DNA from: Streptomyces roseochromogenus subsp. oscitans DS 12.976
GTDB lineage: Bacteria > Actinomycetota > Actinomycetes > Streptomycetales > Streptomycetaceae
Length of the DNA stretch: 64,000 nucleotides
Assembly: GCF_000497445.1 (NCBI RefSeq)
Contig: NZ_CM002285.1
Location: 6,880,319-6,944,318 of the forward strand
Reading direction: 5' to 3'
Part shown: in pieces, positions 14,374 through 59,186 of the stretch
Numbering within the stretch: the stretch's first letter is position 1
Layout of the letters: the number at the start of each line of letters is the position of its first letter
Made by a program: the position numbers and the translations under genes
Notes under the pieces: generated by a model
Databases searched by the model: none
Told to the model about the DNA's origin: nothing
The model's input: the letters and a program-made list of their open reading frames with translations, nothing else

Positions 14374-15174
14374 TCAGCCGCGCTGGATGCCGGAGGTGTC
14401 CTGGAGCACACCCCGGCGGCCGTCCTGGGTCTGCGCGATGAGCTGGGCACCGCGCTGCTCGACGGCCAGGTACCAGGTGCCCGGCGCCAGTTCGGCGATC
14501 GGGGCCTGCGAGCCGTCCTCCGGGAACAGCGGGCGGGTCACCGGCACGGCGAACCAGAACGGCGAGAAGTCCGCCGAGGCCGGCTGCGCCGCCGCCGGAG
14601 CGGCACCCTGCGGAGCCGGCTGGTGCCCGAACGGCTGCCCCGGCTGCGGCTGCGCACCGTACGGCTGGCCCGGCTGCGGCTGGGCACCCGGGTAGCCGTA
14701 ACCACCGGGCGGCTGGGCGCCGTAGGGCTGAGGGGAGACCGGCTTGGGGGCCGGGAGGAGGGCGGCCTGGAGGGCGGGGACGAGGGGGGTCGCGACAGCG
14801 GTGGCGGCGAGGACGAGGGCTGCGATGAACCCGAGGATGAGGCCGGAGCCGGCGTCGATGTGGTCAGGGACGTCCACCAGCGTCCAGAAGAGGGTCCACG
14901 CGGACAGAATCGTGAAACCCGTGCCCACCATGCCGAGATCCAGGCCCAGCACCTTGCGCTGCTGCGGCAGGCAACGGTTGAGCACGACCAGCGCGGCACC
15001 GATGACGGCCCCCATGTACGTGCCGAGGCCCGTCCCGAGGTTGTCCCACACGCTCTGGCTGTCCGAGAAGCCGGAGACCGAGTAGGAGTAGAGCTTGAGG
15101 AACGACGCGATGAACAGCAACACCGCTGCTCCGATCACCACGCCGTCGCCTCTAGTGAGGGAGCGGATATTCAC
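14374..15174 (-). CDS. Four-helix membrane protein with Pro/Gln-rich repeats
   Basis: 266-residue protein: four transmembrane helices in residues 10-140, then a repeat region with PYGAQPQPGQP-type units (about 145-195), then a soluble C-terminal domain ending in TWYLAVEQRGAQLIAQTQDGRRG. The layout resembles the actinobacterial DUF5336 family. The repeat tail may interact with cell-envelope partners. It is transcribed alone and followed by a hairpin terminator. Function unknown. Confidence 0.75.
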   Translation of the reverse strand: MNIRSLTRGDGVVIGAAVLLFIASFLKLYSYSVSGFSDSQSVWDNLGTGLGTYMGAVIGAALVVLNRCLPQQRKVLGLDLGMVGTGFTILSAWTLFWTLVDVPDHIDAGSGLILGFIAALVLAATAVATPLVPALQAALLPAPKPVSPQPYGAQPPGGYGYPGAQPQPGQPYGAQPQPGQPFGHQPAPQGAAPAAAQPASADFSPFWFAVPVTRPLFPEDGSQAPIAELAPGTWYLAVEQRGAQLIAQTQDGRRGVLQDTSGIQRG

Positions 15175-15335
15175 TTCAAAAGGTCCTTCGGGTCAGTCGT
15201 CTCGTCATCGTGGAGGCGTCGCTGTCACCGTGTCGCCTCAGGACGCGGTGTGAAGCGCGGGGGTGGCCCCTCATCCTAGGAGTGACACTATCGTCCGTCC
15301 GAGCTGGCTGTCCCTCGGGTTCGACGCCGCGAACA

Positions 15336-15510
15336 CTACTCCCGCAGTAATCCCACGATTCCCTCAGAGACTCCACGTGAAGCCCGATGGCGCCAGGCAC
15401 CGCTGGTCAGCGATGCGATGCCCTTCCGGCCGTGCATGTTGCCGTGCTGATGACGGCGTGAGGAACCGTTGGCAGATTGAGACCGACGAAGTCCTCACCG
15501 ACACCCATCG
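15336..15510 (-). pseudogene. Decayed C-terminal fragment of an N-acetylmuramoyl-L-alanine amidase
   Basis: In one minus-strand frame this reads GLNLPTVPHAVIS..., then after a frameshift ASLTSGAWRHRA...GIVGLL followed by a stop. The intact amidase at 17345-18286 ends GLNLSTVPKVFIE...ALLTSGAWRQKAA...GISDFL. The DNA is also alike (CTCAATCTG, GGCAACATGC, CTGACCAGCGG in register). The homology begins about 8-15 bp after the iscB stop, so this fragment marks the 3' border of the IscB element. Confidence 0.75.
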
Positions 15511-15517
15511 TTGCCTC

Positions 15518-16834
15518 TCAATCGTGGTCGGCTTCCGCCCGGGTGGTGTAGCCGTAGCCGTCGGCGCGTTGGAGGAGACGGATGTGCCGGTGATGAATGC
15601 CCTGAACCAGTCCGTGATCTGTCTTGATGTTGAAGTTCCCGGTGGCGCGGACGGCGACGCGGCCGGTGTGGCGTCCCTGTTTCTTGCCTGTGGGGACGTT
15701 CGCGCGTACGAGGTCACCGGTTGCGAAGCCGAACTGTTGCTTGGCGCGGGGGAGGTTCAGCCGGGGGAAGCCGTATCGGTCAGGGGTGGTGCGACGGTAG
15801 GTCCCGCGTCCGGTCGCGGTTACAACAAGGACCGTCCCCGGGTGACGTGCCACGCTCTCAAGGGCTCCGACGCACAAGGCATCAAGCGTGTGCGTCTTGG
15901 GCGTTGCGGTGCGCTCGCGATTCCATTTCGTTCGGCCCCCCGAGGATGGTCGTACGTCTTGGTGGCTGGCTTTGAGTGTTTGGATGAGTGCGCAGCGGGT
16001 GGCATTGACCGCTGCCGGGTCCCGTAGAGGGGCCTTTGCCTGTTGCAAGACCTTCGAGAGCAAGGCGGGCTTCTTCTTCAGGAACTCCTCCACCGGCTTG
16101 TTTCCCTTCTGCTCGTTGCAGGGAATACAGGCGAGGGTGAGATTGGAGATGCGGTCGGAACCACCTCGGGACCGGGGGTGGATGTGGTCGATGTTGAGCG
16201 GGACGCCTGTTGCGCCGCAGTAGGTGCATGTCCTGTTCCATTTCGCCAGGAGGTATTCACGCACCTCCATCCCTTGCAGGGTGCCGTGCACGTACTCCGC
16301 ATCGGACGCGAACCGGTCCGCGCTCATGGCCTGAGTGTCAAACGCAACCTGCTCTACATGCACGGTCCGTACGGGGGCCCAGCGGGCGATTCTGTCCACC
16401 CAAGCGCTGGTTGTATCCACCCTGTGCCTGAGAGACGGCGCGAGCCAGCCTTCCGGCCGAGCGCGGTTGCTGGAGCAGGGCGCTCGATAGCGGAGGTTTC
16501 GCTGTCTCCGCGCTCGGCGTAGCGTGGCCCGTGCGGTGAGTCTGTTGCTGATCGCTCCGCCTCGATGCGCCAGCTCGATCGCGAAGAGACCATGGCGCAC
16601 GGTTTCCATCGGCTTGCCGTGGGTGCGAAAGAGTGCGATACCCGTGAATCTGCTGCCTGGGTCGATACCCAGTTCCACGCCCGTCACTTCGGAGCTGGAG
16701 ATGGTGCGTTCTTTGAGGCGAATGACGAATGGGGTGTGGCGGTGTACGACGGCTCGGCCTTGTTTGAGGAGTTTACGGGCGCGAGCCGGTGTGCAGGGCA
16801 TGAGCGGCTGGTGGTGCTTGTCCAAAACGAACAC
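15518..16834 (-). CDS. iscB: IscB RNA-guided endonuclease (OMEGA system, Cas9 ancestor family)
   Basis: 438-residue nuclease with the full IscB layout. The N-terminal PLMP motif is at residues 10-13, RuvC-I IDPGS has Asp58, an Arg-rich bridge helix spans 98-117, and RuvC-II HVEQ has Glu161. The inserted HNH domain has zinc pairs CTYC (203-206) and CIPC (236-239) and catalytic NIDHIHP (His217); RuvC-III KTHTLDA has His315 and Asp318. A TAM-interacting C-terminus follows. All catalytic residues are present, so it should be a double-strand DNA cutter rather than the HNH-less IsrB. I place the start at GTG 16834, which gives the family's usual N-terminus. An in-frame ATG with strong GGAGG at 17083 would add 83 residues encoded by the structured RNA region. 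No tnpA is present. Confidence 0.93.
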   Translation of the reverse strand: MFVLDKHHQPLMPCTPARARKLLKQGRAVVHRHTPFVIRLKERTISSSEVTGVELGIDPGSRFTGIALFRTHGKPMETVRHGLFAIELAHRGGAISNRLTARATLRRARRQRNLRYRAPCSSNRARPEGWLAPSLRHRVDTTSAWVDRIARWAPVRTVHVEQVAFDTQAMSADRFASDAEYVHGTLQGMEVREYLLAKWNRTCTYCGATGVPLNIDHIHPRSRGGSDRISNLTLACIPCNEQKGNKPVEEFLKKKPALLSKVLQQAKAPLRDPAAVNATRCALIQTLKASHQDVRPSSGGRTKWNRERTATPKTHTLDALCVGALESVARHPGTVLVVTATGRGTYRRTTPDRYGFPRLNLPRAKQQFGFATGDLVRANVPTGKKQGRHTGRVAVRATGNFNIKTDHGLVQGIHHRHIRLLQRADGYGYTTRAEADHD

Positions 16835-17083
16835 CGATGGATGACCCTCACGAGCCTCGCCCTTCCCCGCAGAAGCGGGGTTGGGGTGACGCCCTGCCGG
16901 AGGGGTGCCCTCCGGCAGGGTCTCCCCTCGCCCATGTTCAGAAGCCGTGCCCGACATGGTTGCCGGAAGTCCGCAGGCCGTTTCGTCCCTACTCCCTGGG
17001 GTGTCTGCTCCTGCGGATTCCAGAGCACGCCGCTGAGGAAGCACGGCGCGGTGGGTCTTCTCACGTGAACTGAACGTAGTCAT
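16835..17083 (-). ncRNA. Probable omegaRNA (HEARO-type) guiding IscB
   Basis: The region directly upstream of the iscB core is rich in stems: CCCTGCCGGAGGG/CCCTCCGGCAGGG (16892-16920, 13 bp, 3-nt loop), CCCCGC-AGAA-GCGGGG (16865-16880) and CCATGT...ACATGG (16932-16959). The sequence next to the gene, CTCGTGAGGGTC, resembles the 3' end of HEARO/omegaRNAs as I remember it. In this family the RNA lies 5' of iscB, and the guide is at its 5' end beyond the element border. The exact 5' end and guide cannot be set by eye; the interval is approximate. Confidence 0.68.
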
Positions 17084-17344
17084 CAGAGGCACCTCCTCAT
17101 GATGATGACTGGGGCTGGTCAAACATGAGTGCATCTCTCGGCTGAGAAGTACGCTCCGGCCATCGGGCCGGGAGTGAATGACTTCAGGTCCTTCGTCGGT
17201 CGTTGAGAGCTTCGCCGAGGGCATTAAGGCTCGGCGTGAGCATCGTGCAGCCCTGCAACGTGTGGACGACGGTATCGCGTACTCAGGCGGAGTGTGTAAG
17301 GAATTCCGATTCTTCTCTTTGCGGGGTGCAGGAACGTTACTGAG

Positions 17345-18286
17345 TCAATTCCGTTGCGCGTTCAAGAAGTCCGAGATCCCATCAAAAAGCCCTTGCGCCG
17401 CCTTCTGCCGCCAGGCGCCGCTGGTCAGCAGTGCCGCGTCCTTGCTATCGCGCATGTTGCCGCACTCGATGAACACCTTCGGAACTGTTGACAGATTGAG
17501 ACCACCCAGGTCCGTACGTGTAACGAGACCGGTACCTTCGCCGAGGTAGTTGGACGGCGGCTCACCGGTGTCGCGCAGGAAGGCGCCCGCGACGCGCGTA
17601 CCGAGGTCGTGCGAAGGGCCCACGATCTTACGGGTGTCGGCGGCACCGGCGTGCACGGATCCGGGAAGGATGACGTGGAAGCCGCGGTTGCCGGCTGCGG
17701 AGCCGTCGGCGTGGATGGAGATCGCCGCGTCCGCGTGCGCGTCGTTCCCGATCCGTGCCCGCTCGTCCACGCACGGCCCCCAGGCCGGGCGGTCGCCGTC
17801 ATGGGTCAGCTTCACCGTGGCGCCCTGCTTCTGCAGCAGCGCACTCAGCCGGTGGGCGACGTCGAGGGTGAACCGGGCCTCGGTGTAACCGTCGTTCGTG
17901 GACGTCCCGGTGGTGTCGCACTCCTTGTCGTTCGTCCCGATGTCGACCTTGCGATTGATCTCGGCCGCGTGCTGGAAGTTGCCCGGGTTGTGCCCGGGGT
18001 CGATGACGACGACCTTCCCCTTCAGCGACCCGGATCCGGCCGCGGCCCCGGACGCCCCCTTGCCGTCGTCCGTGGGGGAGGGGGACGAGGACACGGCGGC
18101 GCTGCCGGAGGGCGAGGCGGTGGCGGCTGCGCGATCCGAGCCGCCTCCGGTACCTCCGCCCACCGCCTCGTACACCATCCAGCCGAGCAGCGCGCCGGGC
18201 ACCAGCGCGGCGAGCGCCACGGTCAGCGGCCCGCGCCGGGGCCTGCGGGGCTGTGCGGGTTCGAACTCCGGGCCTACGTACGACAC
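17345..18286 (-). CDS. N-acetylmuramoyl-L-alanine amidase (Amidase_3)
   Basis: 313-residue zinc amidase cleaving the MurNAc-L-Ala bond of peptidoglycan. An N-terminal cytoplasmic Pro/Arg stretch, one membrane anchor (about residues 25-45) and a Ser/Ala linker precede the catalytic domain. Ligands and catalysis: VIDPGHNPGN (His), YTEARFTLD (Glu), ISIHADG (His) and FIECGNMRD (catalytic Glu). GTG 18286 gives SYVGPEFEPAQPRR, a typical Streptomyces N-terminus. A second, decayed copy of its last 60 codons lies beyond the IscB element, so this locus has been duplicated or rebuilt around that insertion. Confidence 0.9.
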   Translation of the reverse strand: MSYVGPEFEPAQPRRPRRGPLTVALAALVPGALLGWMVYEAVGGGTGGGSDRAAATASPSGSAAVSSSPSPTDDGKGASGAAAGSGSLKGKVVVIDPGHNPGNFQHAAEINRKVDIGTNDKECDTTGTSTNDGYTEARFTLDVAHRLSALLQKQGATVKLTHDGDRPAWGPCVDERARIGNDAHADAAISIHADGSAAGNRGFHVILPGSVHAGAADTRKIVGPSHDLGTRVAGAFLRDTGEPPSNYLGEGTGLVTRTDLGGLNLSTVPKVFIECGNMRDSKDAALLTSGAWRQKAAQGLFDGISDFLNAQRN

Positions 18287-18308
18287 GTCTGCGACTCTAA
18301 CCGGGCCC

Positions 18309-18962
18309 TCAGATCCCTGCGCCCGTTCGCCGCAGGACACGCAGCGAGCCGGTCACCGAGACCTCCGTGAACGCCCCGGACTCAAGGGCCCGCAGGTACA
18401 CGCGGTACGGCGCCTGCCCGGTGAACTCGTCCTCGGGCTCCGGGAAGACGTCATGGATGACGAGAAGGCCCCCCTCGGCCACATGGGGCGCCCAGCCCTC
18501 GTAGTCGGCGCTCGCATGCTCGTCCGTATGGCCGCCGTCGACGAAGACGAAGCCGAGCGGGGAGTTCCAGATCGCCGCGATCTGCGGGGAACGGCCCACG
18601 AACGCGACCACGTGCTCCTCCAGGCCCGCCTTGAACAGGGTCCGGCGGAAGACCGGCAGCGTGTCCATCAGCCCGATCTCGGGGTCCACGGTCTCCGGAT
18701 CGTGGTAGTCCCACCCGGGCTGCTGCTCCTCGCTCCCCCGGTGATGGTCGACGGTCAGCACGCTGACCCCGGCGGCCCGTGCGGCATCGGCGAGCAACAC
18801 GGTGGACCGCCCGCAGTACGTCCCGACCTCCAGCAAGGGCAACCCCATCCGCCCTGCCTCCACCGCGGCCACGTACAACGCCAGCCCCTCATCCAGGGGC
18901 ATGAACCCCTTGGCAGCCTCGAACGCGTCCAGAATCTCGGGCTTGGGGGCGTGCGCGGGCAT
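18309..18962 (-). CDS. Class I SAM-dependent methyltransferase (O-methyltransferase type)
   Basis: 217-residue enzyme. LLEVGTYCGRSTVLLADAA (about residues 44-62) is SAM motif I; LTVDHHRGSEEQ follows strand 2, and FVFVDGGHTDEHASADYEGW (about 130-149) matches the CmcI/rhamnosyl-methyltransferase group with an Asp-His metal site. ATG 18962 follows GGAAGG. It lies just after the amidase gene on the same strand but with separate context. The substrate is unknown. Confidence 0.85.
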   Translation of the reverse strand: MPAHAPKPEILDAFEAAKGFMPLDEGLALYVAAVEAGRMGLPLLEVGTYCGRSTVLLADAARAAGVSVLTVDHHRGSEEQQPGWDYHDPETVDPEIGLMDTLPVFRRTLFKAGLEEHVVAFVGRSPQIAAIWNSPLGFVFVDGGHTDEHASADYEGWAPHVAEGGLLVIHDVFPEPEDEFTGQAPYRVYLRALESGAFTEVSVTGSLRVLRRTGAGI

Positions 18963-42565: not shown

Positions 42566-43498
42566 ATGACTGCACGTGGCTGGTTCCTGTTCTCCCTCAT
42601 GGGAGTGGTCTGGGGCGTCCCCTATCTGATGATCAAAGTGGCGGTGGACGAGGTGTCCCCGCCGGTGGTCGTGTTCACGCGCTGCGCGCTGGGCGCGGTC
42701 CTGCTCCTCCCCTTTGCTCTGCGCCAGGGCGGCCTGCCCCGGACGATACGCACCCACTGGCGCCCCATGCTGGCCTTCGCGTGCCTGGAGATCCTGATCC
42801 CCTGGATGACGCTGACCGACGCCGAACGACACCTGTCCAGCTCGACGGCGGGCCTGCTGATCGCGGGCGTACCGATCGTGGGAGTGATCGTCGCCCGCCT
42901 CTTGGGCGACACGGAACACCTCGGAGCCCGCCGCCTGACCGGCCTCGCGCTTGGCCTGGGCGGTGTGACGGTCCTGACCCTTCCCCACCTGACCGGCGGC
43001 GACGCCCGCTCCCTGGCCGAGGTGTTCGTGACAGTGCTGGGCTATGCGACGGCCCCCGTCATCGCCGCCCGCCGCCTCAAGGAGGTCCCGTCTCTGCACC
43101 TGACCGCGGCGTGCCTGACCCTGGCGGCGGTGGTCTACGCCCCGCTGGCGGCCCTCGCCCACCCGACCTCCCTCCCCTCCCCTTCCGCCTTGGCGGCCCT
43201 GACCGGCCTGGGCGTGCTCTGCACGGCGGTGGCCTTCGTGGCTTTCCTGGAGCTGATCAAGGAGGCTGGCCCCACGCGGGCGACAGTGATCACGTACGTC
43301 AACCCTGCGGTGGCGGTGGCGGCGGGCGCGCTCTTCCTGAACGAGCGGCTGACTCCCACGGTCCTGGCGGCCTTCGCCCTGATCCTGGCGGGCTCGGTCC
43401 TGGCGACGGCGGCTGCCGGTCCTCGCCGCTCCAGGCGCCCGGTACCATGGTCGACACGGCAGACGAGCCGGGCGGACGGCCGCGTGGAGTCCCCCTAG
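42566..43498 (+). CDS. EamA/DMT-family transporter
   Basis: 310 residues, ten transmembrane helices in two EamA halves (FSLMGVVWGVPYLMIKVAV... and GVLCTAVAFVAFLELIKEAG...NPAVAVAAGALFLNERLT). Probably an exporter of metabolites. The last 25 residues (Arg/Ser/Pro-rich) and the stop codon lie inside the RNase P RNA gene, so the rnpB promoter must be within this coding sequence. The upstream AraC gene likely regulates it. Confidence 0.9.
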   Translation: MTARGWFLFSLMGVVWGVPYLMIKVAVDEVSPPVVVFTRCALGAVLLLPFALRQGGLPRTIRTHWRPMLAFACLEILIPWMTLTDAERHLSSSTAGLLIAGVPIVGVIVARLLGDTEHLGARRLTGLALGLGGVTVLTLPHLTGGDARSLAEVFVTVLGYATAPVIAARRLKEVPSLHLTAACLTLAAVVYAPLAALAHPTSLPSPSALAALTGLGVLCTAVAFVAFLELIKEAGPTRATVITYVNPAVAVAAGALFLNERLTPTVLAAFALILAGSVLATAAAGPRRSRRPVPWSTRQTSRADGRVESP

Positions 43499-43869
43499 GG
43501 GGCTTCCCGAGGAACGTCCGGGCTCCACAGGGCAGGGTGGTGGCTAACGGCCACCCGGGGTGACCCGCGGGACAGTGCCACAGAAAGCAAACCGCCCGGG
43601 GCTTCGGCCCCTGGTAAGGGTGAAACGGTGGTGTAAGAGACCACCAGTGCCCAGGGTGACCTGGGCAGCTAGGTAAACCCCACCCGGAGCAAGGTCAAAA
43701 GGGGCGCCGTGAAAAGCGCCCTGCGCGGACGCACGAGGGCTGCCCGCCCGAGTCCGCGGGTAGACCGCACGAGGCCGGTGGCAACACCGACCCTAGATGG
43801 ATGGCCGTCGCCGAGGACTCCGCGAGGACCCTCGGAACAGAACCCGGCGTATAGCCCGACTCGTCTGCC
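43458..43869 (+). ncRNA. rnpB: RNase P RNA component (type A)
   Basis: The ends pair as P1 (GGCAGACGAG with CTCGTCTGCC). Conserved blocks are present: GAGGAACGTCCGGGCTCC (P3/CR-I region), GGGTGACCCGCGGGACAGTG, CCACAGAAAGCAAACCGCC, GGTAAGGGTGAAACGGTG, GTAAGAGACCACCAG, and the 3' CR-V block AACAGAACCCGGCGTATAG. This is the catalytic RNA that matures tRNA 5' ends. A strong hairpin terminator follows at once. Confidence 0.97.
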
Positions 43870-58950: not shown

Positions 58951-59186
58951 GCCGGTCCTCCACATTTCCGGCCCCGGTCACGGGGCCACGCGCTTGCGGG
59001 GATCGTCGGTGATCCCGCCGGGCTTTCACCTGGAGCACCCCACCGCGCGGGAGGGTTGCCGGTCAGCGAGCCAGGGCTTGACGCTGACACTCAATGCCGT
59101 TCGTGATCGTACGGAGGGCTCTTGTCGTACGTCAATGCCGGAAATCGACGCCCTGCAGGGGCAGTCGGACCGGCACCGGGTCCGGC

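Follow-up and report, generated by a model that had tools for sequence, protein, structure and literature searches.

The IscB locus and its neighbours

The window, a stretch of 64,000 nucleotides of the Streptomyces roseochromogenus subsp. oscitans DS 12.976 chromosome, carries an IscB reading frame on the minus strand (15518..17083). On one side lies an intact N-acetylmuramoyl-L-alanine amidase gene (Amidase_3; 17345..18340, minus), and on the other a DUF5336-like gene (14374..15174, minus; Pfam score of 26.6 bits, below the cut-off of 28.6), whose start is the putative target of the nuclease. A degenerate copy of the amidase 3' end (15336..15484, minus) is located between IscB and the DUF5336-like gene. 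The IscB frame opens with an ATG (17083-17081) and encodes 521 amino acids, that is, an extension of 83 residues followed by a 438-residue IscB proper (15518..16834, minus; alternative start GTG at 16834), which contains the PLMP motif, RuvC I-III, the bridge helix and the HNH domain.

A preliminary description of this DNA had recognized a complete IscB here, and the assignment is confirmed at the sequence level. The product scored 420 bits against NCBIfam NF040563 (cut-off 175), matched both RRXRR and HNH of Pfam and could be matched in sequence to the solved IscB structures (OgeuIscB, TbaIscB and HfmIscB). The catalytic residues Asp58, Glu161, His217, His315 and Asp318 are all kept, as are both zinc-binding Cys pairs (203/206 and 236/239). 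The residue numbers, including those given earlier for the catalytic residues, count from the valine of GTG 16834 as residue 1, whereas the coordinates reported with them start at 17083 and include 83 residues more. Judging from three pairwise comparisons (356 synonymous versus 114 non-synonymous single changes), the body of IscB is under purifying selection, and a strong third-position excess was observed in the IscB genes of the window and of two relatives (L032 and L033). A predicted structure of the 521-residue protein was set aside as evidence because the whole model was too poor (mean pLDDT of 47.3; about 27-34, with no secondary structure, in the extension).

IscB could be identified at an E-value of 1e-20 or better in 43 of 392 genomes of the genus (a limited, even draw that included the window genome). 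Split or broken copies were present in some of them (for example, G314, G336 and G128), and the G207 copy (L004) is frameshifted around codon 21, which reflects either decay or, although this genome is of good quality, a sequencing error. G257 has four IscB copies in unrelated flanks, three of which are about 86% identical to the fourth. Of these four copies (L043-L046), three terminate in a hairpin, after which come an SD-like CACGAAA stretch and ATGA, as though the element supplied the next gene with an SD. A separate group of IscB genes (L021-L031; approximately 54-57% identical) is found about 60 nt left of the sRNA family Ms_IGR-5 in 11 out of 13 loci, with a diverged target copy downstream of IscB.

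The earlier statement that no transposase adjoins the gene holds: a Pfam scan of the six neighbouring ORFs revealed no transposase family, and the single Y1 transposase found by a genome-wide search lies approximately 0.74 Mb from IscB. In a Y1 search of seven genomes, G207 and G173 had IscB and no Y1 match. By-eye inspection revealed a right-end hairpin at some loci, including three of the four G257 copies, but none in the window clade, in which IscB gives way to the amidase remnant. PMC9755519 reports HEARO RNA in 65% of 5' UTRs and few HEARO nucleases near TnpA.

In unoccupied relatives (28 loci), 91-249 bases separate the amidase gene from the DUF5336 gene downstream of it. In each of the four occupied genomes, the upstream amidase is complete, and a second, degenerate version of its 3' end (48.6-55.6% identity over 31-36 residues) lies between IscB and DUF5336. 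Three of them share an additional small ORF (183 amino acids in L032, 189 in L033 and an open frame of 182 in G207), and G183 has the same small ORF at the same place, between amidase and DUF5336, without IscB. This layout would fit a single insertion event, arising through recombination within the 3' end of the amidase gene, for example by one crossover, and passed on by inheritance since. The small ORF (L032 3823-4374, L033 3793-4362, L088 in G207 and L089 in G183) looks secreted and lies between amidase and IscB in the three relatives; no Pfam match was obtained for the L032 copy, and the ORF was not found in the window genome. For the left flank of the unit in the window (17199-17344), no resemblance to the relatives was seen, and no clear one to the DUF5336 promoter. 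Derivation of this flank (17183-17345) from a diverged DUF5336 promoter copy was considered and rejected, as the similarity without the guide gave z values of at most 3.5 (window versus L065), 2.4 for L032 and about 0 for L004.

The omegaRNA scaffold and the IscB start codon

A permissive scan with the HEARO model (RF02033) yielded a match over the full model (1-211 of 211) at 16915..17182 on the minus strand, with 64.8 bits and an E-value of 1.5e-12; this is under the RF02033 gathering score of 83, and the match is absent from a default Rfam scan. The covariance-model search proposed earlier returned the expected family. Full-length HEARO matches were present in 29 of 29 other genus loci scanned, and all 30 genus RNAs scanned reached 42-77 bits, below the same cut-off. 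The seven loci from other bacteria all gave full-length matches as well, with 72 to 129 bits. The window RNA also shares the GCGAG 3' core of HEARO RNA.

In an alignment of 30 omegaRNA sequences (A1; RNAalifold), 33 of 51 pairs showed changes on both sides, and 97.1% of the cells were paired in the common structure, compared with 82.5% in shuffled alignments (0 of 500 as high) and 30-39% when the structure was slid. The single-sequence fold of the window RNA was ordinary (z of -1.45; 18 of 200 shuffles as good). Since the covariation outweighs this value, we take the window RNA as real. The structured omegaRNA that had been described upstream of the gene is therefore supported by the full-length HEARO match and by covariation in 30 relatives, but its position needs correction, as it sits mostly within the frame beginning at 17083 and not wholly 5' of the coding sequence. 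The earlier alternative that the upstream 250 nt might be only protein-coding is a false choice, because the stretch is a covarying RNA and, at the same time, open and frame-locked.

The start hairpin of the scaffold (17078..17110, minus) differs from known HEARO RNA: its loop contains an SD, GGAGGTG (17090-17096), and the start codon (17081-17083) belongs to the 3' arm. Covariation extends to the first position of the start codon, which forms a U-A pair in 20 sequences, an A-U pair in the 8 that start with TTG, and a C-G and a U-G pair in 1 each. An SD-preceded start was found at the hairpin position in 38 of 41 genus loci examined, the exceptions being L018, L021 and L053, and 35 of these 38 starts were in frame with PLMP. 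Thirty-four of the 35 were free of stops, and these start-to-PLMP stretches had 13 different lengths, all multiples of three. The internal start was out of frame in L004, L020 and L055; in L004, the extrapolated reference is shifted by one base by the frameshift of that copy itself. Split copies (L051 and L052), duplicates (L003, L005 and L010) and loci from other bacteria had been left out of this census beforehand. In L018-L020, the RNA-internal start is lost, is followed by a stop or is out of frame, and another start may serve there.

Alternatively, translation might begin at GTG 16834, and the open frame over the 83 preceding codons would be a chance product of the high GC content. The phase of the frame argues against this: the distance from the internal start to the RNA 3' core has one shared phase in 29 of 30 loci, in addition to the 35 of 38 in phase with PLMP, whereas the length of the untranslated stretch of the RNA 5' of the start codon shows no preference modulo 3 (9, 10 and 11 of 30). 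Moreover, in a stretch from 25 codons ahead of the PLMP start to 3 codons past it, 7 of 34 loci lack a start codon, and 30 of 34 lack one with an SD match of at least 5; the internal start has one in 33 of 34, a figure that is partly built in, as this start was chosen by its SD pattern. On the other side, little amino-acid selection was visible in the extension, which also lacked secondary structure in the poor predicted model, and five of the seven relatives outside the genus (L034, L035, L038, L040 and L041; by eye) have an SD just before PLMP. Changes at codon positions 1, 2 and 3 of the RNA-overlapping extension numbered 6, 6 and 18 in the window group, 87, 145 and 99 in a second group and 138, 174 and 245 in a third, that is, a third-position excess in the small window group, none in the second and a mild one in the third. 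The corresponding values for IscB proper were 127, 86 and 435; 975, 563 and 2340; and 4031, 3349 and 9360. Thus, in the extension, the frame counts for more than the peptide, as the phase is kept with little sign of the peptide selection seen in IscB proper. We consider initiation at GTG 16834 very unlikely, and the IscB reading frame appears to start inside the omegaRNA scaffold. This putative frame-locked start within a guide RNA is the most surprising part of the locus and was absent from its first reading. Among the literature titles listed as matches, none dealt with IscB in Streptomyces or with a start codon inside HEARO/omegaRNA.

The guide, its target and the TAM

Comparison of the flanks with genomes lacking the insertion, as had been suggested, provided the guide, the empty target and the TAM. 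The guide comprises 16 nt directly 5' of the scaffold (17183..17198, minus; CGACGAAGGACCTGAA). Its TAM-proximal 14 nt, ACGAAGGACCTGAA, equal the SD/start region of DUF5336 in relatives without IscB at this place, where GTGAAT follows directly; the DUF5336 start of unoccupied relatives often reads ACGAAGGACCTGAA and then GTGAATATCC. Such uninserted alleles with an intact target were found at 13 of 29 unoccupied loci, which equal the guide in 12 of 12 TAM-proximal bases. The left flank of the window aligns with the other three occupied genomes only from the 14-base guide onward. We regard the assignment of this candidate guide as firm. A pattern for the target start had matches in 330 of 392 genomes; 149 of the matches listed were used, after one off-locus match was dropped, and the spacer CCTGAA occurred in 68 of these 149.

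The resident target of the window has diverged. It lies with its TAM at the DUF5336 start (15169..15191, minus) and consists of CCGAAGGACCTTTTGAA (15175-15191) and GTGAAT (15169-15174). The guides at this locus are ACGAAGGACCTGAA in the window and L004, ACGAAGGACTTGAA in L032 and ACGAAGGACCTTTGAA in L033, and the own DUF5336 targets are CCTTTTGAA in the window, CCTTTGAA in L032 and L004 and CTTCTTGAA in L033. In all four genomes occupied here, 2-3 bases are inserted in the own target near the TAM. Among the pattern matches listed, such an insertion was present in 3 of 3 occupied versus 12 of 87 other GAA-type genomes (L033 was outside this set), with a P value of 0.004 if the genomes were independent, which they are not, given the common arrangement of the four occupied ones. 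An identical +TT insertion occurs in the target of G343, which shows no trace of IscB within 5.5 kb. The end of the L033 guide equals the end of the target now present in L032, L004 and G343. For the three nucleases of its Fig. 2a, PMC9755519 gives target-strand cutting at position 3; counted from the TAM, the insertions of the window clade follow base three or four and so adjoin this position, and those of IscB-free genomes lie nearby as well. In the window genome, no site had two or fewer mismatches to the guide+TAM pattern (16 fixed positions), and 73 sites had three mismatches, compared with 85 for a reversed control pattern. These observations suggest that the resident target may have escaped from its own guide.

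Similar relationships could be observed at other insertion sites. In nrdB, 9 of 20 empty loci match the 14-nt guide of L012 and L014 (ending in GAGGCCTGCCAGTA) exactly and continue with ATGA, the others differing in the TAM or the guide stretch; this match is weaker evidence, as the stretch is conserved coding sequence. At Ms_IGR-5, the target ACACGAGAAGGGAG followed by GTGGTT is exact over 14 nt in 4 of 18 empty loci, and the guides of L021 and L050 carry this 14-mer, with related forms in others. The guide of L008, AGAGGGGAACCCAGTA, has one mismatch in 12 at 5 of 12 empty loci of the corresponding gene, and ATGAG follows in 12 of 12. In the L007 gene, the insertion lies between the 5' UTR and ATGAC, and the guide has 9-10 mismatches of 12 to the three empty loci compared, owing to a one-base shift. 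The L017 guide did not match the empty site of its neighbour, and the comparison for L006 was ambiguous. A guide match at every site is therefore ruled out, as L007 fits by position only and L017 does not fit. A by-eye tally, with L017 included, gave an ATGA start to the right of IscB in 17 of 18 cases; it was set aside because ATGA was what had been looked for. On the basis of the guide-adjacent bases at the DUF5336, nrdB, Ms_IGR-5 and L008 sites, the TAM would be about RTGR, which we do not claim as new; Weinberg et al. in 2009 reportedly described HEARO elements inserting beside ATGA or GTGA.

With regard to the own targets downstream of IscB at Ms_IGR-5, none of 13 own pairs had fewer than three mismatches in 12, whereas 74 of 234 pairs of guides and empty genomes had two or fewer (L154, from the genome of L023, was dropped, and L053, L054 and L056 were left out, as their guides were not located). 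Avoidance is hinted at by this comparison with empty genomes only. Escape at this site was rejected as a finding, as the own mismatch total of 62 was close to the permuted value of 60.9 (P of 0.44), and random draws from all targets gave a P value of 0.14. Between L027 and L028, each guide fits the Ms_IGR-5 target of the partner genome in 12 of 12 TAM-proximal bases and not the resident one.

Possible roles of the unit

We consider it probable that the locus is a transposase-free chromosomal OMEGA (IscB/HEARO) unit behaving like an RNA-guided homing element. The protein, the RNA, the match of guide and empty site, the diverged own target and the frame lock can be read from the sequence, and a model built on them would add transcription, cutting, sparing and spread. 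In this model, a single transcript would serve as guide RNA and mRNA, with a 5' end copying the DUF5336 SD/start (the guide), then the HEARO scaffold and then IscB, the translation of which would begin within the scaffold. The IscB-omegaRNA complex would cut DUF5336 alleles that still read guide plus RTGR, that is, the uninserted alleles found in many related genomes, and repair from the occupied copy would allow the element to spread or to be kept. The resident target would be spared owing to its 2-3 extra bases close to the TAM. Both homing and self-escape are plausible. Of the two roles put forward before, a stand-alone homing nuclease or a host-adapted one, homing gains support from the matches between guides and empty sites, and no evidence for a host function was obtained here. 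A more far-reaching and tentative idea is that, in streptomycetes, IscB and its omegaRNA have merged into a transcript with two uses: with the scaffold forming part of the first 80-100 codons and the start locked in a hairpin, a transcript may be either translated or folded as guide, which would act as a built-in brake. Under the same idea, the guides might continue to be directed at conserved gene starts as they read in other strains, the own allele meanwhile slipping beyond their reach, in an RNA-guided self/non-self drive.

Several other explanations should be considered. The unit might be an immobile and decaying passenger of an old ISC/HEARO transposon, inherited with the locus, so that changes of guide and target are drift. 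The shared arrangement of the four genomes, the lack of a right-end hairpin in the window, the split or broken copies elsewhere, the G207 frameshift and the target insertions without IscB would all agree with this. However, the intact catalytic residues and the strong third-position excess in the window, L032 and L033 speak against decay, and the 14-nt guide has been kept though the left flank of the window (amidase to guide) no longer aligns with relatives; we consider a passenger rather unlikely. Defence or allele incompatibility, in which incoming or sibling DNA with a different DUF5336 (or Ms_IGR-5) start allele is attacked, would explain why guides fit alleles of other genomes and why the L027 and L028 guides match each other's target. 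Yet pairs of occupied genomes seldom match in this way (14 of 156 with two or fewer mismatches), and the PADLOC matches include no IscB model and only weak HNH-type matches, which makes this role improbable. We give least credence to a domesticated regulator, which would adjust expression of DUF5336 by occupying its start region and leave the DNA uncut: the guide does aim at the SD/start of the neighbour and the own target keeps a partial match, but the nuclease residues are intact, and the own target is altered beside the TAM in four of four occupied genomes, so binding there should be weak.

The proposed homing unit resembles IscB/OMEGA nucleases in its PLMP motif, split RuvC with HNH insert, bridge helix, 5' omegaRNA and guide directly 5' of the scaffold; it differs in that an SD and a start codon appear inside the omegaRNA, no transposase adjoins and the guide fits one conserved gene start. 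TldR-like RNA-guided repressors are inactivated nucleases, unlike the window IscB, whose RuvC and HNH residues are intact. Free-standing homing endonucleases are encoded beside a site whose uninserted allele they cut. The window gene likewise adjoins the site whose uninserted allele its product would cut, but the nuclease is predicted to be RNA-guided, and its spread by cutting is a proposal. In TnpB, RNA and gene overlap at the 3' end of the gene, whereas the overlap in the window unit is at the 5' end. According to PMC10278001, the omegaRNA of TnpB/IS605 is likewise a guide RNA derived from the nuclease mRNA. As guide, empty target, TAM and altered resident target are all readable from genomes, homing should be directly testable in streptomycetes. 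Initiation within the guide scaffold, if true, would couple nuclease dose to guide supply, and annotation and expression of actinobacterial IscBs would be affected, as N-terminus and RNA boundary overlap. Elsewhere in the window, an Rfam scan also identified an RNase P RNA (43464-43867) and a SAM-IV riboswitch (58985-59098).
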